DNA of 64,000 bases from Neorhizobium alkalisoli (GTDB lineage: Bacteria; Pseudomonadota; Alphaproteobacteria; Rhizobiales; Rhizobiaceae): NCBI RefSeq assembly GCF_007829835.1, contig NZ_VIWP01000001.1, positions 1,116,001 to 1,180,000 on the forward strand, read 5' to 3'. Under the pieces are notes generated by a model, which searched no databases, was not told the origin of the DNA, and saw only the letters and a program-made list of their open reading frames with translations. Both the position numbers and the translations under genes were made by a program. Positions 32,879 through 43,631 of this stretch are shown piece by piece. The first letter of the stretch is position 1; the number at the start of each line of letters is the position of its first letter.

Positions 32879-34051
32879 TCAAGCCCTCGGGAAGGAGAGC
32901 GTCCCGTCCGACCACACCATCTTTCCGCCGCGCAGCGTGGCGCGCATGCGCGGCATTTTTCCGCGCTCGGCGATGACCAGATCGGCGCGCAGGCCTTCTG
33001 CGATCGCGCCGCGGTCATCGAGGCCGAGTGCTTTCGCCGGATTGGCGGTTGCAAGCGCCACGGCGTTGGCAAGCCCGCTCTCGCCTCTTGCCGTTATCAT
33101 GTCGCCCAGTGCGATCACGGCCGGCAGAATGGCGGAAGGGTGATAATCGCTGGCAAGAATGTCGAGCACGCCGGCCTCATAGGCTTCACGTGCCGAAAGA
33201 TTGCCGGAATAGGACTGGCCGCGCAGCGCGTTCGGCGCACCCATGGCCGTTGCCAGACCCAGGCGACGTGCCTCTGCAGCAACCTCAAGCGTGATCGGAA
33301 ATTCGCTGATCCTGACACCGAGGCCGTGCATCAGCGCCGCCTTTTCGAGGCTGTCGTCGTCGTGCGAGGCAATGGTGATGCCTTTTTCTCTGGCAAGCTC
33401 AGCCAGTCCGGTGACCACATGCATGGCATCGCCATGGGCTTCGCGCTGGGCGATGCGATCCTTCACCATTTCCACGGCGGTGGCGTAGTCGATCTTCTTC
33501 GTCTTCGCCATGTTGCGGGTGTGGATTTCGAGGTCGCGATACTGTCCCTGGCCGGGTGTGTGATCCATCAGGGAGATCAGTCCCAGCGCTCCGTCCCGCA
33601 TCAGCTTTTCCGCAACCTCGATGGCCGAGGGAAAGGTGATTTCGAAACGGGCATGGACGCGATGGTCGACAAGCAGTTCGTCGCGCATCGAGGCAAGCGC
33701 ACCGATGATCGCCGTCGTGTTTTCCACCGAGCGGAGGTGACCGTAAGTGGCCGGCGTGAAGGCAAGTGCCGCATAGGCGGTGGTGATGCCATTGGCGGCG
33801 AGCTTCTTGTCGAGATCGTAGAGCCCCAGTTCGAGCGGCATCCGCACGTTGGCGCGGGGCTCGACTTCCTTCTCGATCATGTCGCCATGGATATCGACAA
33901 AGCCTGGCAGCAGCAGCCGGCCTTCGCCGTCGACCCCCGTAACGTCGCCGGGTGTGTCGCGGATCTCCACGATCAATCCGTCCTCGACGCGAACGGCGCC
34001 GCGGTTGATGACACGGTCCGCCAGGACGATCTCGAAATTATTGAACCACAT
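32879..34051 (-). CDS. phnM: PhnM, ribose 1-methylphosphonate 5-triphosphate diphosphatase
   Basis: 390 residues, amidohydrolase superfamily. In the C-P lyase pathway PhnM removes pyrophosphate from ribosyl-phosphonate triphosphate. The metal site region LLPGFVDIHGDMIEKEVEP, ISLMDHTPGQGQYRD, IASHDDDSLEKA and ILASDYHPSAIL follow the PhnM pattern and metal ligands look intact. The start overlaps the phnL stop by 14 bases. It is the last gene of the phn operon; no phnN or phnP follows within the window. Confidence 0.93.
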   Translation of the reverse strand: MWFNNFEIVLADRVINRGAVRVEDGLIVEIRDTPGDVTGVDGEGRLLLPGFVDIHGDMIEKEVEPRANVRMPLELGLYDLDKKLAANGITTAYAALAFTPATYGHLRSVENTTAIIGALASMRDELLVDHRVHARFEITFPSAIEVAEKLMRDGALGLISLMDHTPGQGQYRDLEIHTRNMAKTKKIDYATAVEMVKDRIAQREAHGDAMHVVTGLAELAREKGITIASHDDDSLEKAALMHGLGVRISEFPITLEVAAEARRLGLATAMGAPNALRGQSYSGNLSAREAYEAGVLDILASDYHPSAILPAVIALGDMITARGESGLANAVALATANPAKALGLDDRGAIAEGLRADLVIAERGKMPRMRATLRGGKMVWSDGTLSFPRA

Positions 34052-34781
34052 TGTCTGCCTCGTCCTCGATCTTGATGGCCTTGAGATGGATCTCCCGGTC
34101 GATCAGGCCGGCAACATCCTCGGGATGATGGAAGACGCCGATCATTGCAACCCCTGACGCCTTCAGTTCTGTCAGCCGATCGACCAGCGCCTTGCGCGCC
34201 GTATGGTCGAGCGAGGCCGTCGGCTCGTCGAGCAGAAGCAGTCGTTGCGGCAGGATCAGGGCACGGGCCAGGTTGACCTTCTGCTGTTCGCCACCGGAGA
34301 AAGTGGAAGGATAGGCGGGCCAGAGCTGTTTCTTGACGCCGAAAGCGGCAAGCCAGCGGCGCGCTTCGACCAGGGCTTCGGCATGTGGCGTTCCGGCGAG
34401 CCGCAACGGTTCGGCGACGACCTCTTCTGCCGCGACGCGCGGGCGGGCATTGAGGAACTGGGTGACGAAGCCGATCTCGCGGCGGCGCAGCACGGCGATG
34501 TCGACATCGGCGGCCGCGGCAAGGTCGATCACGCCTTCCTTCGTGTGATAGAAGGCGTGCCCGGCGCGCGGCCGATAGGAGCGGTAGAGGGTGCGCAGCA
34601 GGGTGGATTTGCCCGCTCCGTTTTCACCCTTCAGCAGGATGAATTCGCCTTCGCCGAGTTCGAAATTCAGATCCTCGAAAGCGTAGAGCGTGCGGCGCAG
34701 ATGGTGCATTTCGAACTGTTTCGAAAGACCCTCGACGCGCAGCACGGGGCTCGCTCCCGACTTGGAAACTTGCATGTCCAT
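34038..34781 (-). CDS. phnL: PhnL, C-P lyase ABC-type ATPase
   Basis: 247 residues from ATG 34781 (an apparent longer frame begins inside phnK). Walker A KGENGAGKST, signature FSGGEQQKVNLARA, Walker B LLLLDEPTASLD and switch His in GVFHHPED are all intact. PhnL resembles ABC ATPases but works with the C-P lyase core complex rather than a transporter; it is needed for phosphonate use in E. coli. It lies 13 bases after phnK and overlaps phnM. Confidence 0.93.
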   Translation of the reverse strand: MDMQVSKSGASPVLRVEGLSKQFEMHHLRRTLYAFEDLNFELGEGEFILLKGENGAGKSTLLRTLYRSYRPRAGHAFYHTKEGVIDLAAAADVDIAVLRRREIGFVTQFLNARPRVAAEEVVAEPLRLAGTPHAEALVEARRWLAAFGVKKQLWPAYPSTFSGGEQQKVNLARALILPQRLLLLDEPTASLDHTARKALVDRLTELKASGVAMIGVFHHPEDVAGLIDREIHLKAIKIEDEADNVVQ

Positions 34782-34794
34782 TGTCTGGTCGTCC

Positions 34795-35610
34795 TCAAAG
34801 CTTCGCATGAACGAGTTGCTGGGTATATTCGTGCTGCGGGTCCTGAAAGATCTGGTCCGCCAGCCCCTGTTCCACGACCCGGCCGCGCCGCATGACCATG
34901 ACCCGGTCGGCCATCGTGCGGATGACACCGAGATCATGCGAGACCAGAACCATGGTGATGGCGCGTTCCTGCTGCAGTCGTTTCAGCGTATCGAGAACCA
35001 GCGCCTGGACGCTGACATCGAGGCCGGTGGTCGGTTCGTCGAGGAGAAGCACTGCCGGTTCGAGAGCAATCGCCTTGGCCAGCTGGACGCGTTGCTGCAT
35101 GCCGCCCGACAGTTCGCGTGGCCGGGCGTCGATGCGCTCCAGAGGGAATTCCGAGGCCTGCAGGGATTCTCTTGCCCGCGAACGCAGATCGGCAAAGTTG
35201 CGATTGCCGGCAATAAGCAGCCGCTCGGCAACATTGCCGCTGCTCGTATGGCCCATCAGGAGACCCAGATGCGGGTTCTGATAGACGATACCGATATGGC
35301 GGGCGCGCAGCATGCGCCGTTCGAACCGGTCGAGCGTGAAGAGATTGCGCTCTTCCTGGTCGGGCAGGGAAAGGTGATAGCTGCCGGCCTCCGGCGTATC
35401 TTCGAGATTCATCATCCGCAGCAGGGTGGATTTGCCCGAGCCGGATTCGCCGACAATGCCGAGGACTTCGCCCGGATAGACGGTGACATCGACATCGATG
35501 ACCGCCTTGACCTCACCGAAGCTCTTGGAGATGCCGCGCATGGACAGCATCGGCTCGGCCAGCATCAGGCGCGGCTCATGGCGGGGCACGGTGTTGAAGA
35601 GAGCCGCCAT
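34795..35610 (-). CDS. phnK: PhnK, C-P lyase ABC-type ATPase
   Basis: 271 residues. Walker A GESGSGKST, signature LSGGMQQRVQLAKA and Walker B VLLLDEPTTGLD are complete. PhnK docks on the PhnGHIJ core in E. coli, with its ATPase cycle thought to open the complex. An N-terminal extension of about 20 residues precedes the usual domain start, and internal Mets at residues 16 and 21 could be the real starts. The ATG overlaps the phnJ stop (TGATG). Confidence 0.93.
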   Translation of the reverse strand: MAALFNTVPRHEPRLMLAEPMLSMRGISKSFGEVKAVIDVDVTVYPGEVLGIVGESGSGKSTLLRMMNLEDTPEAGSYHLSLPDQEERNLFTLDRFERRMLRARHIGIVYQNPHLGLLMGHTSSGNVAERLLIAGNRNFADLRSRARESLQASEFPLERIDARPRELSGGMQQRVQLAKAIALEPAVLLLDEPTTGLDVSVQALVLDTLKRLQQERAITMVLVSHDLGVIRTMADRVMVMRRGRVVEQGLADQIFQDPQHEYTQQLVHAKL

Positions 35611-36521
35611 CAGTCCATCCTTCCATTGTTGTACCAGGTTTTGGCGATCTCGACCGCCTCTCCCTCATTCCTGCGGATCTGCTTGACGCCGAAATGGCTG
35701 TCGGACAGTTCGTGACGCGACGAGCCGTCATCCTGCGGCAGTTCGTTCATGAAGAAGCCGGTGACATTGCTGCGATAGCAGGTCTTGTCCTGATGATCCT
35801 CGACCCGGTAGGGCACGTCGTCGAAAACCAGCGGTTCGACATTCGTATAGGGCGGTACGGCATAGATGCGCTTTTCGCGTCCGGCCGAAAGGATGGTCAG
35901 GTGGTCTGCCTGATGCAGTTTCTTCACATCCCAGCGGGGGATCGGCGACGGCGAGATGACGTAGCGGCCGTTGACCATGCTGGGATAGCTCGATCCCTGT
36001 ATGATGCGGCCGGATTTCACCAGCTGTTCGTAAAGCACCAGCCAAAGCTGGCCGTAATCGGCATCGCCATGCATTTCGCGGGCGATTGACATGTCCGGCT
36101 GCACGGCGCGCAGCGGCTCCGGATCCGGCACCTGCAGGACGAGGATCTGGTCCTCGCGCAGCTTTTCTTCCGGAATGCGATGGCGTGACTGGATGATCGT
36201 CGCCTTCTGCGTATCCTCGGTTTCGACGGCGCCGCCGACGCGGGCGAAGAATTTGCGGATGCTGACGGCGTTGACGCTGTCGTCGGCACCCTGGTCGATC
36301 ACCTTGACGACGGAGGTCGGCTTCAGCAGCGTCAGCGTCGCCTGCAGGCCGCCGGTTCCCCATCCGCGTGCCATCGGCACTTCACGGCTGGCATAGGGCA
36401 CCTGATAGCCGGGCACCGCGACAGCCTTCAACATCTTGCGGCGCAGTTCGCGCTTGGCCGATTCATCCAGGAAGCCGTAGTTGAAGGCCGCCCAGGGTTT
36501 TGTGAGATCCTTGAGTGTCAC
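35610..36521 (-). CDS. phnJ: PhnJ homologue with a degenerate radical-SAM cysteine motif
   Basis: 303 residues, clearly PhnJ by its body: LDESAKRELRRKMLKAVA, VPGYQVPYASRE with Gly38 matching the glycyl-radical Gly32 of E. coli, WGTGGLQATL, DQGADDSVNAVSIRKFF, and SAGREKRIYAVPPYTNVE. Canonical PhnJ holds a 4Fe-4S cluster and catalytic thiyl Cys in C-X2-C-X21-C-X5-C near the C-terminus. Here only the first Cys remains (Cys248, CYRS), then Ser251, Leu272 (HELSD) and Gly278 (SHFG) replace the other three. This is the only cysteine in the protein. The frame is intact and overlaps phnI and phnK normally, so it is expressed. C-P bond cleavage by the known mechanism looks impossible. Confidence 0.9.
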   Translation of the reverse strand: MTLKDLTKPWAAFNYGFLDESAKRELRRKMLKAVAVPGYQVPYASREVPMARGWGTGGLQATLTLLKPTSVVKVIDQGADDSVNAVSIRKFFARVGGAVETEDTQKATIIQSRHRIPEEKLREDQILVLQVPDPEPLRAVQPDMSIAREMHGDADYGQLWLVLYEQLVKSGRIIQGSSYPSMVNGRYVISPSPIPRWDVKKLHQADHLTILSAGREKRIYAVPPYTNVEPLVFDDVPYRVEDHQDKTCYRSNVTGFFMNELPQDDGSSRHELSDSHFGVKQIRRNEGEAVEIAKTWYNNGRMD

Positions 36522-37606
36522 AGTGCGGCCTCTTCCTGCCGGGTTTGCGGTTTGGCCGCCTTCGCTGCGGCCGCAGCCGCACGATCCGCCTTGACGCCAC
36601 GAAAGGCGTCCAGCGTCGACTGGAAGGTGACATAATGCGGAAGCTTGAAGTGAATGCAGAAGCCGGAGCTTTCAACCGGTTCCGTATGGTAGAGCACAAA
36701 TTCCTCCGTCGAGGCAGCGTGTGCGTCGGGCTGGCTCGACGCCAGATCGAGCGAGGCGGCGGCGATGACCTTCACCTCGTTCCAGCCGAAGGTTGCCGAA
36801 AAGCCGAGTTCGAGCACCGCCGCCTTGGAGATGATTTCCGCCTGGCTGACGCGGACGCTGCCGGCGCTGAAAAGCGTGCCGCGCGGATGGTGGATCCGAA
36901 CCGGAGCCTCGGCAAGGCGCAATTCATTGACCGTCGGATGCACCGAGCCATAACCGCGCATGGTCGAATAACCCAGTGCCAGCGTTCCGCCGGTATCGGC
37001 GCGGGCAAGGCTTTGCAGCTTGTGGGCGCGCGGTGCGGGAAAGAGCAGCGGCTCACGGGTAAGATCGGGTATGTCGTCGGGGGCGACCGCCTCTGACTTG
37101 TGATCTGCGATCAACCCTTGCGTCTTCTGCCAGGCAGCGAGCGAGGGCTGGGTTGCCGGTGCGGGTTCGGCAGCTGCGGTCACCGGGGCAGGCACATAAT
37201 CCTCTCCCATGAGGACGCCAACCTGCAGCAGGCGATGGGAATAATCGAGCGTCGGGCCAAGGATCTGGCCGCCCGGAATATCCTTGAAGGCGGCGGAGAT
37301 GCGGCGCAGCGTGAACAGATCTGGCTGCTTCACCGGCTCGGCCACCGCGATGCGCGGCTGTGTCGTGCGATAGGCGCGCAGCAAGAGAACGGCCTCATAG
37401 AGATCGCCGCCGGTTTGTGCCAGAGCAAGCGCAGCCAGATCGGGCTCATAGAGCGAGGCCTCGCCCATCAGCCGATCGACAAGATAGGGCAGGCTGATGC
37501 GGATCGCATCGACCCTGTCCTTGCCGATCGTACCGAGATCGTCGCGATAAAGCCGTTCGGCCTGTTCGATGGCGTGTTCGCCGCCACGCGTTGCCACATA
37601 GGCCAT
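36518..37606 (-). CDS. phnI: PhnI, C-P lyase core subunit
   Basis: 362 residues. In E. coli PhnI is the nucleosidase/ribosyl-transferase subunit that couples phosphonate to ribose. MAYVATRGGEHAIEQAERL at the N-terminus, GYGSVHPTVNELR and EFVLYHTEPVESSGFCIH are as expected. The two histidines of the metal site (H-F-K-L-P-H, His319 and His324) match E. coli His328 and His333, so this active site seems kept. The stop overlaps the phnJ start by 4 bases, and the start overlaps the phnH stop by 1. Confidence 0.93.
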   Translation of the reverse strand: MAYVATRGGEHAIEQAERLYRDDLGTIGKDRVDAIRISLPYLVDRLMGEASLYEPDLAALALAQTGGDLYEAVLLLRAYRTTQPRIAVAEPVKQPDLFTLRRISAAFKDIPGGQILGPTLDYSHRLLQVGVLMGEDYVPAPVTAAAEPAPATQPSLAAWQKTQGLIADHKSEAVAPDDIPDLTREPLLFPAPRAHKLQSLARADTGGTLALGYSTMRGYGSVHPTVNELRLAEAPVRIHHPRGTLFSAGSVRVSQAEIISKAAVLELGFSATFGWNEVKVIAAASLDLASSQPDAHAASTEEFVLYHTEPVESSGFCIHFKLPHYVTFQSTLDAFRGVKADRAAAAAAKAAKPQTRQEEAAL

Positions 37607-38175
37607 CAGAGCACCTCGACTTTTGTGGAACGGGGAATGCCGACGACATCGTCGCCATCGACAAGGTAGAGATCGAAGCCCAGCGGATAGCGGATCGCTT
37701 TGGCGCGCATTTGCCAGAAGGACGCATCGATGCCGCCGACCGTGATCGTCACGCTGTCACGAATGCCGGGGCCGGAGAGCCGAAGCTGCTGGCCGGTGCC
37801 GAAGTTCGCCGGCGTGAAAACCGTCGCGGCCTCGTCGGGATAAGCGAGCGTGCCGATGCGAAGACGCGAGAGGTCATCAACCGCCTGTGCCGAGCGGAGC
37901 GCCGCAAACACATAGTCCGCCTGCGCAAGATCGGCACGGCGTGCGCCGGTTGCGGCGAGATCGCGCTCCAGATCACCAGCGCTTTCGCCATCAAGCACGC
38001 GGTCGCCGAGAACGTGAAATGTGCATTCACGGTCAAGCAGGCTTTCCGCGATGGCGGTAAAACCGCCGGCAGGCATGGTGCGGAGCAGGCCTGGCCGCGA
38101 AAGCGCCCATATCAGTTCCTCGAAGATGGCATTGGTGCGGCTGTCATCGGCGGTGGGAAGGATGGAAAGCGACAT
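37606..38175 (-). CDS. phnH: PhnH, C-P lyase core subunit
   Basis: 189 residues, typical length. PhnH is a structural part of the PhnGHIJ core with a PLP-transferase-like fold but no known catalysis. FEELIWALSRPG near the start and LSGPGIRDSVTITVGGID and WQMRAKAIRYPLGFDLYL near the end are family-like. It lies 2 bases after phnG and overlaps phnI by one base. Confidence 0.9.
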   Translation of the reverse strand: MSLSILPTADDSRTNAIFEELIWALSRPGLLRTMPAGGFTAIAESLLDRECTFHVLGDRVLDGESAGDLERDLAATGARRADLAQADYVFAALRSAQAVDDLSRLRIGTLAYPDEAATVFTPANFGTGQQLRLSGPGIRDSVTITVGGIDASFWQMRAKAIRYPLGFDLYLVDGDDVVGIPRSTKVEVL

Positions 38176-38177
38176 GA

Positions 38178-38636
38178 TCAGAACGTCTCCATCTGGACAC
38201 GGGTAGCCTCGACCTTGCGCAGTCGCTCACGGTCGGCCTGTTGCTGCCGGGCGTCCTCGGCCTCGATAAAGGCGAGGATTGGCCCGCTATCATGACCGAT
38301 AGCGATTGCGGCATCGATCACGGCCATTGCCATTGCCTGTTCCAGATCGCGACCCGTCACGGCGCCAAAACCTTCAATGCCGCTTACCGCCAAGCGGATA
38401 TGGGCTTCCGCCACGAGCACTTCGCCAAGGTGGAAGGCTGTTCCCTTGACCGTGTCCTCGAAGGGCAACATGACGAGACCGGTCCGGTTGTTCAGCACGG
38501 TCACGTCACCGAGCCCAGTCAGAACCTGTTCCGCACAGGCCTTGAGTGACCTGGCATCGCTGGCTGCAAGAATATTGAGCGCCTGTTCGTGAGAATAGGC
38601 GCCGATGACCGGTTCGCCGGTCGCAAGCTCACTCAT
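38178..38636 (-). CDS. phnG: PhnG, C-P lyase core subunit
   Basis: 152 residues from ATG 38636, which follows AAGGAAG; a longer frame without ribosome site is rejected. It shows the PhnG features RTGLVMLPFEDTVKGTAFHLGEVLVAEA with conserved E and L positions, and GRDLEQAMAMAVIDAA. PhnG helps form the core complex with PhnI. First gene of the phnGHIJKLM unit; a strong inverted repeat lies about 115 bases upstream and is a likely operator. Confidence 0.9.
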   Translation of the reverse strand: MSELATGEPVIGAYSHEQALNILAASDARSLKACAEQVLTGLGDVTVLNNRTGLVMLPFEDTVKGTAFHLGEVLVAEAHIRLAVSGIEGFGAVTGRDLEQAMAMAVIDAAIAIGHDSGPILAFIEAEDARQQQADRERLRKVEATRVQMETF

Positions 38637-38749
38637 GCGTCTTCCTTTCTTCCGATGCAGCAGCAGCGCGCCCGCGTTGCGGATGTTCCTGCGGCATGGG
38701 TCACGCCTCATCACGCGTCCCGGCTCGGGAGATTCGTGGGTGGCTCGAT

Positions 38750-38853: not shown

Positions 38854-39660
38854 TTAAAGGCCGTCGCGCCGGCGCAGCCAGTCGGCAGTCAGCGTGCTGG
38901 CGAAGGCCGCTGCCGCGGTTACGCTCTTTCCCTCAAGAAGCGCGAACAGCATGGCGCCGCTGAAACGGTCTCCGGCGCCGATGGCGCTTTTGACCTCGAT
39001 CCGCTGCTGCGGCACGACCTTCACTGTGTCCTTGCCGTCGAAAAGGGTGATCGGTTCGGGGCCGTCCGTCAGGACCAGCATTTTCAGCCGCGATCCGGCA
39101 ATGGCTCCGGCCCGCTGCCAGGCGGTGTCGAGATCGCCATCGACGTCGTCGCGGGAGGAGATGACATAATCTGCCGGGCGGGGCGTCGCCGGCCGCAGCG
39201 GCAATTGCGTGACGACGATCGGAATGTCGTCAAGCGCATGCACGAGGCCTGCATCGAGGCTCAGCGCGTTGATATAGGCGGCGTTGCCGGTCAGTGGCGC
39301 TGCGATCGTAAACGGCGGACGGGCATGGCTGGGTAGTCCCATGATCGTGCGTTCGCCATTCGGTTCAAGCAGGATTTCGAGCAGCGACGTCTCGCCGGCC
39401 TCCATCGCCACCTCGCGCGTCTCGAAGCCCATCTGCTTGAGTGTATCGAGGGCCGCATAACCTTGCGCGTCGCTTCTCAGCCAGGTGACCATGGAAACTT
39501 CGGCGCCAAGGTCGAGAAGCTGGCTGCCGGTGAAGAAGCCGCCGCCGCCGAGCTGGATCTCTTGCGATGCCACATGCAGGCGGCCGCCCCGCACCAACGG
39601 GTCGCTGAGTCGCCAGATGCGGTCATGGTTGACGCCGCCGATGACGATGACGCGGGGCAT
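38854..39660 (-). CDS. PfkB-family carbohydrate kinase
   Basis: 268 residues. N-terminal PRVIVIGGVNHDRIW, GGGGFFTGSQLLDLGAEV, and near the C-terminus GAGDRFSGAMLF, the anion-hole and catalytic-base signature of ribokinase-like enzymes (Asp in GAGD). It phosphorylates a sugar or nucleoside-like alcohol with ATP. It lies 6 bases after the second permease and just before the phn operator, and it is not a usual phn gene. Its likely substrate is whatever the adjoining importer brings in; a phosphonate sugar is one idea. Confidence 0.85.
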   Translation of the reverse strand: MPRVIVIGGVNHDRIWRLSDPLVRGGRLHVASQEIQLGGGGFFTGSQLLDLGAEVSMVTWLRSDAQGYAALDTLKQMGFETREVAMEAGETSLLEILLEPNGERTIMGLPSHARPPFTIAAPLTGNAAYINALSLDAGLVHALDDIPIVVTQLPLRPATPRPADYVISSRDDVDGDLDTAWQRAGAIAGSRLKMLVLTDGPEPITLFDGKDTVKVVPQQRIEVKSAIGAGDRFSGAMLFALLEGKSVTAAAAFASTLTADWLRRRDGL

Positions 39661-39666
39661 GGCCGG

Positions 39667-40503
39667 TTATCTTTCGTCCATGCCCGGCGCCAGCGCGTCG
39701 ACGATGTAGCGCTGGGCAAACAGGAAGATCACCAGGACGGGCAGGATCGAAAGCAGGCTGGTCGCCATCAATGGTCCCCAGGCCTGCCCCGTTCCGTCGA
39801 GATCGGCAAAGGCTGCGATGCCGGTCGTCAAGGTCTTTTTCGAGGAATCTTCGAGCACAAGCTGACCCCAAAGATAGATGTTCCAGGCACCCATGAAGGA
39901 AATCACCGAAAGTGCGGCGATCGACGGGATGACATTGGGGATGCCGATGCCGGCAAACTGCCGCCAAAGGCCCGCACCGTCGATCCGTGCCGCCTCGAAC
40001 ATTGCCCCTGGCAGTGAACGAAACGCCTGCCGCATGTAGAAGACATAGAAGCCGATATAGGGAATGGAAGGGATGATCATCGCCCCATAGGTGTCGAAAG
40101 CCTGCAGCTTCACCACGCCGATATAGGTCGGGATGATGGCAAGCACGGTCGGGAATGACATGGTGGCGATGACGAACCAGAAAAGCGCCTGCCTGCCGCG
40201 AAACTCCATGCGCCCGAAGGCGAAACCGGCCGGGATGGCAAGCAGAAGCTTGCCGAGGGTGATCAGCGTCGCCGTAAAAATGGAGTTCCACAGCCACAGC
40301 CAGATCGGATGACGCTCGGCTGCCAGGGTGAAGTTCGCGAGCGTCGGATGTTCCGGCCAGAAACGGATCGCCTTGCCGGCAATCAGATCGTCCGGCGTGA
40401 AGGCAGAAGACACCATCCAGACGAGCGGAAACAGCGTCATGAAACAGGTGACCAGCAGGACAGCATGGATGAAAAGCCGATGCAGCGAAATCCGGGTGCT
40501 CAT
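39667..40503 (-). CDS. Carbohydrate-type ABC permease (UgpE/MalG class)
   Basis: 278 residues, six membrane segments. N-terminal LFPLVWMVSSAFTP, central GKLLLAIPAGFAFGRMEF, and the EAA loop FEAARIDGAGLWRQFAGIGIP are typical of the second permease of CUT1 importers. The ATG overlaps the other permease's stop by 4 bases (ATGA). No ATPase gene is found in this operon, so it probably shares one from elsewhere, as several CUT1 systems do. Confidence 0.9.
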   Translation of the reverse strand: MSTRISLHRLFIHAVLLVTCFMTLFPLVWMVSSAFTPDDLIAGKAIRFWPEHPTLANFTLAAERHPIWLWLWNSIFTATLITLGKLLLAIPAGFAFGRMEFRGRQALFWFVIATMSFPTVLAIIPTYIGVVKLQAFDTYGAMIIPSIPYIGFYVFYMRQAFRSLPGAMFEAARIDGAGLWRQFAGIGIPNVIPSIAALSVISFMGAWNIYLWGQLVLEDSSKKTLTTGIAAFADLDGTGQAWGPLMATSLLSILPVLVIFLFAQRYIVDALAPGMDER

Positions 40504-41384
40504 GCCTTATGCGTCTCCCTTTCGGCAACGCGGAACTGCAGCCACGTGACCGTGAGGACCAGAACGATGATGATCATCGCAATGGCGCTGGCCGGTCCGA
40601 ACTGGAAGAAACGCAGCCCCTGCTGCCAGAGGAAATAAAGCACGCTCGAGCTTCGCCCGGCCGGACCGCCATGGGTCAGCACGTCGATGACGCCGACAAT
40701 ATCGTCCAGAACATGGAAAAAGGTGGTGACGCTGATGAAGAAGGCGGTCGGCGCCATCAGCGGCAGGCTGATCGTGAAGAAATGCCGCCGCGGGCCTGCG
40801 CCATCGAGCTGCGAGGCTTCACGCAGCTCATGCGGCAGGTTGCTGAGGGCGGCGAGCCAGAGCAGCATGTTGAGCCCGAACGTCTTCCAGAAGGTGACGA
40901 GGCAGACGCAGAGAAGTGCGAGGTTCGGATCTGTATGCCAACGCGACGGCGGAAAGCCGAAAAACCCGAGAATCTCGTTGAACAGGCCGTTGACCGGGTT
41001 GAACAGCCAGGACCAGGCAATGCTGGCGACCGAATAGGCGACGATCGTCGGCAGGAAAAGGCTGCCGCGATAGAGGCCCTGGATCGGGCTCTTGCGCACC
41101 GAATGGATCATCAGCGCCAGGATAAGCGGCAGGACGATCTCGGCGGGAATGAGGATCGCGCAGTAGAGAACGGTGTTCCAGGCCGCCAGGCGGAAGTCGG
41201 CATTGCCGAAAGCCGCCGTATAATTGGCTGTTCCAACGAAACTGATATCGGAAGATAGGAGATTCCAGTCGAGCACCGACAACAGCGCGGAAGCGATGAG
41301 CGGGCCGTAGAGGAAGATCGCGACGGACAGAACGGCTGGCCCCACGAACAGGTAGGGGGCCAGCAGTCGAAGGCGGGAATGCAT
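40500..41384 (-). CDS. Carbohydrate-type ABC permease (UgpA/MalF class)
   Basis: 294 residues from ATG 41384, placed 4 bases after the binding-protein stop. It shows LLAPYLFVGPAVLSVAIFLYG in the first helix, GLYRGSLFLPTIVAYSVAS, and the EAA loop LREASQLDGAGPRRHFFTISLP. This is the first permease of a CUT1-type importer. An upstream longer frame lies within the binding-protein gene and is rejected. Partner of the following permease. Confidence 0.9.
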   Translation of the reverse strand: MHSRLRLLAPYLFVGPAVLSVAIFLYGPLIASALLSVLDWNLLSSDISFVGTANYTAAFGNADFRLAAWNTVLYCAILIPAEIVLPLILALMIHSVRKSPIQGLYRGSLFLPTIVAYSVASIAWSWLFNPVNGLFNEILGFFGFPPSRWHTDPNLALLCVCLVTFWKTFGLNMLLWLAALSNLPHELREASQLDGAGPRRHFFTISLPLMAPTAFFISVTTFFHVLDDIVGVIDVLTHGGPAGRSSSVLYFLWQQGLRFFQFGPASAIAMIIIVLVLTVTWLQFRVAERETHKA

Positions 41385-41388
41385 CGGA

Positions 41389-42636
41389 TCAGGCCGCGAC
41401 CAGCGCCGCCAGCTCGTCATGCGCGCCCTTGATGCCGTCGGCAATACTGGCTTCTTTGAGCAGCATGCGCGAAACCCACTTGCGCCAGACATCCTGGCCT
41501 TCGAGGCCACGCTTGCCGGGCCAGATGGTCTCTGCCGTCAGGCCGTCGCCGAGCTGGGCAGCCGCCGGCTTCATGAAGTCGTTGATCAGCGGCACATCAT
41601 GAACCGAAGTGTTGAGGTAACCGACCTGCGACCAGATCGTCTGGCCTTCCTTTGATGCGCAGAATTCCAGGAAGGCGAGCGAGGCCTCGGCCTGTTCCTT
41701 GTTCTTCGTGTAGACGGCGAGGAAGTTGCCGCCGCTGTTCATGTTGCGGGCGTGGCCCGGCATGCCCGGGAACTTGGTGGTGATCGCCTTGGCGGCGCCA
41801 AGCGGGAAGGTGACAGCGCGGGTCGAGCTGGTCGTGCAGATGGCGAGCGCACCGGCTTCGAATGCGGCATCCTGTTCCTTGGCGCTGACCGGCGTCCACA
41901 GGCCGTCGAATGCCGGCTTGCAATATTCCGTCATGCCGGCGATCGCTTCGGCACTGTTCAGCGCGAGCTTGCCGGCCGGATCGATGATGTAGCCGCCAGC
42001 GTTCTGGATGAAGGACTGGCTGGTCCACTCGTTGTTGGAAAGCGCCAGCGCTGAGCGATAGGTCGGGTGCTTGCCCTTCAGCGCTGCGTCGAGCTTGCGG
42101 GCATTCTCGTACAGCCATGTGCTGTCGATCGTCTCCGGAAGATTGGGGTCGAGACCGGCGGCCTTCCACAATTCGCTGTTGATGAAGGTGATCGGCGTGG
42201 ACATCGCCCAGGGAAGGCCGATCAGCGAACCGTCGATCGTCACCAGCGGATGCACGGACGAACGGAAATTGCCGATGATCGCGTCCGCCTTGGTGGCGTT
42301 GATTTCGCGCAGATCGCGGGCGCCGAGCGTGCGCTTGGCAAAATAGCCGAACTTCCAGCCGGTGATCATCATTGCCGGCGGGCGGCCAGCGGCGACGCTG
42401 GCAACTGCCTTGGCCGTCGCGGTTTCGTAGTCGCCGTCAAAGCGGTTGACGACGGTCACGCCCAGCTTCTTGGCGTTGAAGGCGTCGACGACCTTCTGGA
42501 ACGGCTTGTCCGAACCCCAGGTGCTCGAGACCTCGATTGTCGCATCGGCGGAGCGAGCGGCATCTGTGAAGGCCAGGCTCGCGCCGACCGCTGCTGTTGC
42601 TCCGGCCACGAACTGCCGACGATTCATATCCACCAT
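41389..42636 (-). CDS. Extracellular solute-binding protein, family 1, Tat-exported
   Basis: 415 residues. The N-terminus MVDMNRRQFVAGATAAVGAS contains a twin-arginine motif, so it is likely folded before export. The body is like UgpB/MalE-type proteins: GDYETATAKAVASVAAGRPP, LPWAMSTPITFINSELWKAAG, AFEAGALAICTTSSTRAV. ATG 42636 follows GGAG by 6 bases. It begins the import-pfkB unit, and a pair of direct repeats that look like operators lies just upstream. The ligand may be a phosphonate or phosphoester; inferred from neighbours. Confidence 0.88.
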   Translation of the reverse strand: MVDMNRRQFVAGATAAVGASLAFTDAARSADATIEVSSTWGSDKPFQKVVDAFNAKKLGVTVVNRFDGDYETATAKAVASVAAGRPPAMMITGWKFGYFAKRTLGARDLREINATKADAIIGNFRSSVHPLVTIDGSLIGLPWAMSTPITFINSELWKAAGLDPNLPETIDSTWLYENARKLDAALKGKHPTYRSALALSNNEWTSQSFIQNAGGYIIDPAGKLALNSAEAIAGMTEYCKPAFDGLWTPVSAKEQDAAFEAGALAICTTSSTRAVTFPLGAAKAITTKFPGMPGHARNMNSGGNFLAVYTKNKEQAEASLAFLEFCASKEGQTIWSQVGYLNTSVHDVPLINDFMKPAAAQLGDGLTAETIWPGKRGLEGQDVWRKWVSRMLLKEASIADGIKGAHDELAALVAA

Positions 42637-42839: not shown

Positions 42840-42872
42840 TCAAAGATCATATAAAAAGAATTGGATGGCGGA

Positions 42873-43631
42873 ATGGTTGGCAAATCGGTGCACGGGCAGT
42901 GGCAGCAGGTTGAAGAAGATATCGCCGGAGATATCCTGACCGGCCGCCTGTCTCCGAAGACCCAGCTTCCCAAGGAGGCGGATCTGATGGAGCGCTTCGG
43001 CGTCGGCCGCCATACGATCCGCAGGGCGATCTCCAATCTGGAAAGCCGCGGCCTGGTGCAGGTGGAACAGGGGCGTGGCACCTTCGTGCGTGAAGGCCGG
43101 CTCGACTACCGTCTGTCGGAACGGACACGATTTTCGCAGAATCTGCTGGAGCAGGGGCGCGAGCCTTTAGGGCAGGCGGTGCGTGAAGAGCTGATTGCAG
43201 CGCCAAGCGTGGTCGCCGAAGCCCTGCGCCTGCCGCAGGGGGAGCCCGTCTACCACATCGTTCGCCGCGGTTTCGCCGACGACGAGCCAATCAACTTTTC
43301 GAATGCCTTTTACCCCGTCCGCCGCTTTCCCGGTTTCGATGATGCACGGCGCAGTGGCCGCAGCATTTCGGTGATCTTCGCGGAATATGGTGTTCCCGAC
43401 TATATCCGCCTGAGGACGGATATCATCGTGCGCATGCCGACTGCCGAAGAGGCACGGCAGCTCGACCAGGCCATGTCGCTGCCGGTGATTGCGTTGAAAA
43501 AGGTCGATGTCGACATGAAGGGAACGCCGATCGCCTATTCGGAGACGATCTGGCCAGGCGAGAGAGTGCAGTTTTCGATCGACAATACGAGCCAGCTTCT
43601 CGATGCGCTGGCGCGAAATCAGGAATTTTAG
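42873..43631 (+). CDS. phnF: GntR/HutC-family regulator, PhnF-like
   Basis: 252 residues. N-terminal winged helix (ILTGRLSPKTQLPKEADLME and FGVGRHTIRRAISNLESRGLV, QGRGTFV) followed by a UTRA ligand domain (RTRFSQNLLEQGREP; VYHIVRRGFADDEPINF; GTPIAYSETIWPGERVQF). It resembles PhnF phosphonate regulators. ATG 42873 is preferred to TTG 42861; the ribosome site is weak for both. Divergent from the importer operon with ATTCG-core operators on both sides of the gap, so it likely represses importer, pfkB, phn genes and itself until a ligand binds. Confidence 0.85.
   Translation: MVGKSVHGQWQQVEEDIAGDILTGRLSPKTQLPKEADLMERFGVGRHTIRRAISNLESRGLVQVEQGRGTFVREGRLDYRLSERTRFSQNLLEQGREPLGQAVREELIAAPSVVAEALRLPQGEPVYHIVRRGFADDEPINFSNAFYPVRRFPGFDDARRSGRSISVIFAEYGVPDYIRLRTDIIVRMPTAEEARQLDQAMSLPVIALKKVDVDMKGTPIAYSETIWPGERVQFSIDNTSQLLDALARNQEF

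Follow-up and report, generated by a model that had tools for sequence, protein, structure and literature searches.

A lineage of the C-P lyase subunit PhnJ that has lost three of its four cluster cysteines occurs in some soil and marine bacteria and on a Thermus plasmid. As the active site is otherwise kept, the complex probably works in another way. The cysteines of the variant cannot make up the 4Fe-4S cluster as known. The member described here lies in the window, that is, the whole stretch of 64,000 nucleotides of Neorhizobium alkalisoli DNA that was analysed, together with the following genes:

32879..34051, minus strand: phnM, exceeding the cut-off of its NCBIfam model
34038..34937, minus strand: open reading frame of a phnL-type ABC ATPase, top NCBIfam model PhnL (240.6 bits, below the cut-off of 256.3); true start internal, not fixed
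34795..35610, minus strand: phnK-type ABC ATPase, top NCBIfam model PhnK (223.5 bits, below the cut-off of 302.85)
35610..36521, minus strand: phnJ variant, 303 aa, GTG start, single Cys248
35688..35780, minus strand: former cluster motif, phnJ residues 248-278, C248-X2-S251-X20-L272-X5-G278
36518..37606, minus strand: phnI, with the zinc-site histidines retained (H219, H328 and H333 in E. coli) and C317 lying two positions ahead of the H328 equivalent
37606..38175, minus strand: phnH
38178..38714, minus strand: phnG open reading frame, true start possibly internal
38854..39660, minus strand: PfkB-family sugar kinase, scoring above the PfkB cut-off of Pfam; it resembles ribokinases but reaches none of the 12 NCBIfam cut-offs listed
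39667..40503, minus strand: ABC importer permease, named CUT1-type after an earlier note on this DNA and its neighbours
40500..41510, minus strand: second ABC importer permease, an open reading frame that overlaps the next gene, so that its start is probably internal
41389..42636, minus strand: solute-binding protein, matched in NCBIfam by UgpB only (47.9 bits, where the cut-off is 411)
42861..43631, plus strand: divergent GntR/UTRA regulator, exceeding the cut-off of the NCBIfam PhnF model

The order in the window is thus divergent PhnF-type regulator, solute-binding protein, two permeases, PfkB kinase and phnG-H-I-J-K-L-M, and a C-P lyase core is recognizable by the adjacent genes for PhnG, H, I, K and L and by the zinc-site histidines of PhnI. 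The earlier note had described phnG, H, I, K, L and M as intact and overlapping in an otherwise complete operon. These genes are present, open and in order, but phnG and phnH lie two bases apart, and phnN, phnP and DUF1045, the same-operon genes by which the remaining pathway was judged, were not found adjoining the window operon. The phnN and DUF1045 genes of this genome sit in its four-cysteine phn operon.

The window PhnJ falls in the PhnJ family of Pfam (PF06007, 402.3 bits against a curated cut-off of 25) and matches E. coli PhnJ over residues 11-276 (E 2.2e-84). The NCBIfam search listed no family for the window PhnJ or PhnI, and NCBIfam may lack such models. Only one of the four cysteines of the canonical cluster motif near the C terminus, quoted in a passage of PMC4389238 as CX2CX21CX5C, is present. 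The translated reading frame contains a single cysteine, C248, and alignment with E. coli K-12 PhnJ sets C241, C244, C266 and C272 opposite C248, S251, L272 and G278, with a middle gap of 20 residues as compared to 21, and Gly32 opposite G38. The three replacements, the one-residue shift and the retained glycyl-radical glycine had all been claimed beforehand from the sequence and were borne out. Residue 39, directly after the Gly32 equivalent, is Tyr in the window protein; Cys occupies this position in 49 of 89 variant PhnJ. The top Foldseek match of the window PhnJ model was 7z19_D (TM 0.66/0.72), at an rmsd of 8.0 and a model mean pLDDT of only 63.8, and a second model had a mean pLDDT of 62.0. 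As both models are too weak, C248 is not placeable in the structure.

The replacement pattern was common to 87 deduplicated loci with 86 distinct sequences, drawn from the best 80 of 223 relatives, plasmid records and the window. Relatives were collected by using aligned variant tails as the query against a genome set in which each species has a single representative, and phyla other than Pseudomonadota were sampled via a plasmid collection only. Since the 80 loci were picked by likeness to the variant tail, the number 87 should not be read as a frequency. Even sampling shows the variant to be rare: it was present in 2 of 385 genomes for the class and in 5 of 398 for the phylum, with the window genome counted in each; two of the seven matches in the phylum sample had four cysteines. 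The second, third and fourth cluster cysteines are absent in all 89 variant rows. G222, G796 and G1077 were variant-like by score and were rejected, as each carries four cysteines. A very divergent four-cysteine PhnJ type, represented by G158 (L187) and G222 (L185), was seen on a long branch. Microvirga sp. VF16 (G319) gave 10 PhnJ matches, and the two that were read (L043, L075) are variants on plasmid pMVF16-1. Public annotation names the variant C-P-lyase PhnJ in the five plasmid records examined, and the open-licence literature searched yielded no account of a PhnJ clade that lacks the three cluster cysteines.

A clade with the same replacements, which the earlier note had proposed to search for, exists. 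In PhnJ trees, which contain long branches according to a tool warning and are rooted for drawing only, the variants fall on one side of a branch both with 72 rows (support 100/95), where two Thermus plasmid proteins are placed beside 39 other variants, and with 46 rows lacking the C-terminal domain (93/89; split present in 96% of 200 bootstrap trees). Quick trees of PhnI (32 rows) and PhnK (20 rows) split as PhnJ does, with SH-aLRT of 99 and 98; the core of the variant complex has been inherited together. Variant phnJ is under purifying selection with a dN/dS near 0.1, ranging in five pairs with the window from 0.08 to 0.13 over the whole gene and from 0.09 to 0.22 over the C-terminal domain.

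Residue conservation was read against 68 rows with all four cysteines, in which E. coli and the window genome's own copy each appear twice; there were 3 comparison rows for PhnG and 5 for PhnM, while PhnH had 43, most of them truncated. Contacts of the cyclic phosphate PRcP are known from the E. coli structure, as given in a passage of PMC9947105. R107, H108 and Q124 are kept in 91 of 91 readable variant PhnJ rows, and G47, W48, G49 and T50 in 90 of 90, as is the proposed glycyl-radical Gly32 (90/90), the rows including four duplicates. The PhnI zinc histidines H219, H328 and H333 are found in 86 of 86 variant rows. Conserved His/Asp of PhnM such as H55, D57, H134, H165 and H229 (85/85) and, in PhnK, K44 (87/87), D170 and E171 (86/87 each) and H204 (85/87) are likewise retained; we take the residues of these two subunits to be catalytic, apart from PhnK ones whose role is published. 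Some of the PhnK residues are named in a passage of PMC9947105.

The region of the former cluster itself is altered. C248 is invariant (89/89) and R250, N259, P262, Q263 and E271 are conserved in 88 or 89 of 89 variants, while the four-cysteine rows differ there; the C-terminal domain of variant PhnJ has been rebuilt. Other cysteines at the cluster site had been named in advance as a possible objection. None is invariant among the 89 variant PhnJ rows to replace those lost, and no set of invariant cysteines that would suffice for a 4Fe-4S cluster was seen in the seven subunits, PhnG to PhnM, encoded by the variant operons. In PhnI, 84 of 86 variant rows and 1 of 67 four-cysteine rows have a cysteine two positions ahead of the zinc ligand His328, and at C253 the residue is Cys in 66 of the 67 four-cysteine rows, as against 1 of the 86 from variants. 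PhnH C51 occurs in 81 of 84 variant rows, where only 3 of the 43 four-cysteine rows are readable. The PhnI cysteine belongs to alphaproteobacterial variants and is absent in two Thermus rows (L037, L044), and is therefore no general requirement; the PhnH cysteine is absent in the Thermus variants as well. A full set of cluster cysteines from another subunit was considered and is not supported, although PhnH C51 and PhnI C317 are common in alphaproteobacteria. The statement in the earlier note that the known radical C-P cleavage is closed to this complex stands in so far as the known 4Fe-4S cluster cannot be bound here by its known ligands.

Compared to E. coli phn, the window is alike in core gene order and in Zn/His and PRcP pocket residues, but differs in the absence of three of four cluster cysteines, in the loss of PhnI C253 and in having no phnN, phnO or phnP match adjoining the operon. 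A second phn operon with a normal PhnJ, which the earlier note had suggested looking for, is present in the same genome (G000:C4, L159). It shares phnGHIJKL, phnM and a PhnF-type regulator with the window operon. Its PhnJ (L001), unlike that of the window, has four cysteines, and the operon further differs by a DapH-like gene, phnC, D, E, E, DUF1045 and phnN, with no pfkB or CUT1 match in its 19.5 kb stretch. The PhnJ of Thermus thermophilus HB8 plasmid pVV8 has C, T, V and M at the cluster positions and branches beside the alphaproteobacterial variants, but its phn cluster has a phnCDE importer and a LacI-type regulator, and its PhnI and PhnH are without the cysteines seen in alphaproteobacterial variants.

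Across the 87 variant loci, the order with pfkB and a CUT1 importer anticipated in the earlier note was found in 17, window included. A PhnD-like gene lies near 55 of the loci, instead of or besides the pfkB/CUT1 set, a DapH-like gene near 34, pfkB near 26 and the window-type binding protein near 18; phnN was found in 6, DUF1045 in 5 and phnP in none. As three importer types are linked to the variant operon, no single substrate guess can be made. Among 20 four-cysteine operons from variant-bearing genomes, 17 had DUF1045, 17 the DapH-like gene and at least 8 phnN; only 2 of the 20 are from Rhodobacterales (L177, L178), and in some the sequence stretch stops short of phnN. A xylose-isomerase-like TIM barrel (PF01261) is near 33 of the 87 variant loci; it is seen in variant loci of Rhodobacterales (e.g. 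L116:13171-13980) and in none of the 20 four-cysteine operons with their 2 Rhodobacterales members.

A full-length second PhnJ of canonical score was present in 76 of the 79 genomes that hold the best 80 of 223 loci (L075, from the same record as L072, was excluded from the genome count). These copies scored at least 467 bits, as compared to about 375-406 bits for variants, and were called canonical by score, the cysteines being read in 30 (L129-L158). In G373 the second copy is in two pieces at contig ends, and in G362 only a fragment of the variant was seen. In the last of the 79, Paenochrobactrum gallinarii (G345, which place and score identify with G078; 94% complete), the variant is the only PhnJ, and phnN is directly beside its core. 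A second genome with the variant alone is G026 (99% complete), whose variant core adjoins phnC, D, E, DUF1045, phnM and phnN. DUF1045, proposed as a cyclic phosphate phosphodiesterase in a passage of PMC8235418, and phnN are present in both of these genomes, which fits a product that still enters the route from cyclic phosphate to PRPP. A product other than the cyclic phosphate had been considered in view of how seldom DUF1045 and phnN accompany the variant; the idea is weakened by the two variant-only genomes keeping both.

Since the cluster cysteines are lost and the remaining site is intact, ribosylation followed by polar P-R cleavage at the zinc site is proposed. We tentatively put forward, at rather less than even confidence, a second C-P-lyase-type complex that is self-contained, with PhnGHIJKL served by a PhnM, a regulator and an importer of its own; its PhnJ has lost the 4Fe-4S site, and cleavage would take a polar route at the Zn-His site. 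PhnGHI and the ATPases would couple the imported phosphorus compound to ribose and PhnM would trim the triphosphate. The P-R bond would then be broken at the conserved PhnI/PhnJ Zn-His site without a radical: the ribose 2'-OH would attack phosphorus and displace the R group, yielding the same 1,2-cyclic phosphate. Polar cleavage would limit substrates to those whose R leaves without a radical, namely phosphate esters or activated phosphonates. More specifically, cluster- and radical-free cleavage of a P-C or P-ester bond at the PhnI/PhnJ zinc site, with a new zinc-adjacent cysteine in alphaproteobacteria, is a possibility we regard with some doubt. According to a passage of PMC9947105, the E. 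coli cluster site is ~30 A from Gly32, which in the open state is 31 A from the zinc. Counting for polar cleavage are these distances, the kept PRcP and zinc-site residues, the retained PhnM and PhnK residues, the shared PhnI/PhnK split, invariant C248, the dN/dS and the variant-only genomes with phnN and DUF1045. An unactivated C-P bond is, however, difficult to break by polar chemistry, and there seems little economy in using ATP to open an ester that is within reach of a phosphatase. Further counting against it are the PhnD-like gene near 55 of 87 loci, which points to phosphonates, the infrequency of DUF1045 (5/87) and phnN (6/87) beside the variant, the absence of the PhnI cysteine in Thermus, and the retention of Gly32, which would no longer be needed once the radical is gone.

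Ordinary C-P bonds might instead still be cleaved via another redox or metal centre, formed by C248 with other ligands or by the alphaproteobacterial PhnI cysteine. The invariance of C248 (89/89), the frequency of C317 (84/86), the 55 loci with PhnD-like importers and the G026 variant, sole PhnJ of its genome beside phnC, D, E, DUF1045, phnM and phnN, would all agree with this, yet no invariant cysteine set adequate for 4Fe-4S was seen in the seven subunits and Thermus does without the PhnH and PhnI cysteines, and we consider such a centre unlikely. Retained radical chemistry, with cluster ligands that are non-cysteine or come from a protein outside the operon, would explain why Gly32 persists in all 90 readable rows. 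A structural role may account for this glycine, however, and with a rebuilt C-terminal domain, in which R250, N259, P262, Q263 and E271 are conserved (88 or 89/89), we hold this to be highly improbable.

The variant complex could also only make ribosyl-phosphonate, to be passed to the normal PhnJ of the same cell, in keeping with the second PhnJ in 76 of 79 genomes. Such company is weak evidence, as a PhnJ of one type or another is widespread in the family (207/297); conservation of the PhnJ pocket would be needless, and G026 and G078 hold the variant only, which makes a hand-over improbable. A decayed copy or a sequencing error, both raised by the earlier note, is refuted for the group as a whole and can be practically discounted, with nothing found in its favour. 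Error is ruled out by the 86 distinct sequences sharing the pattern on one side of the branch, and although a canonical phnJ is present as foreseen, purifying selection by dN/dS shows no decay.

A passage of PMC9947105 describes the mechanism of the C-P lyase reaction as an unresolved conundrum. If polar cleavage is true, the zinc site, and not Gly32 with the cluster, would be where the P-R bond can break. In this naturally occurring complex the zinc site is retained without the cluster, so that the two proposed sites are already set apart and the question of mechanism becomes testable. Counts of phnJ (K06163) serve as a sign of methane production in a passage of PMC8774927, and the variant, being annotated as C-P-lyase PhnJ in public records, is relevant to such phnJ-based surveys.
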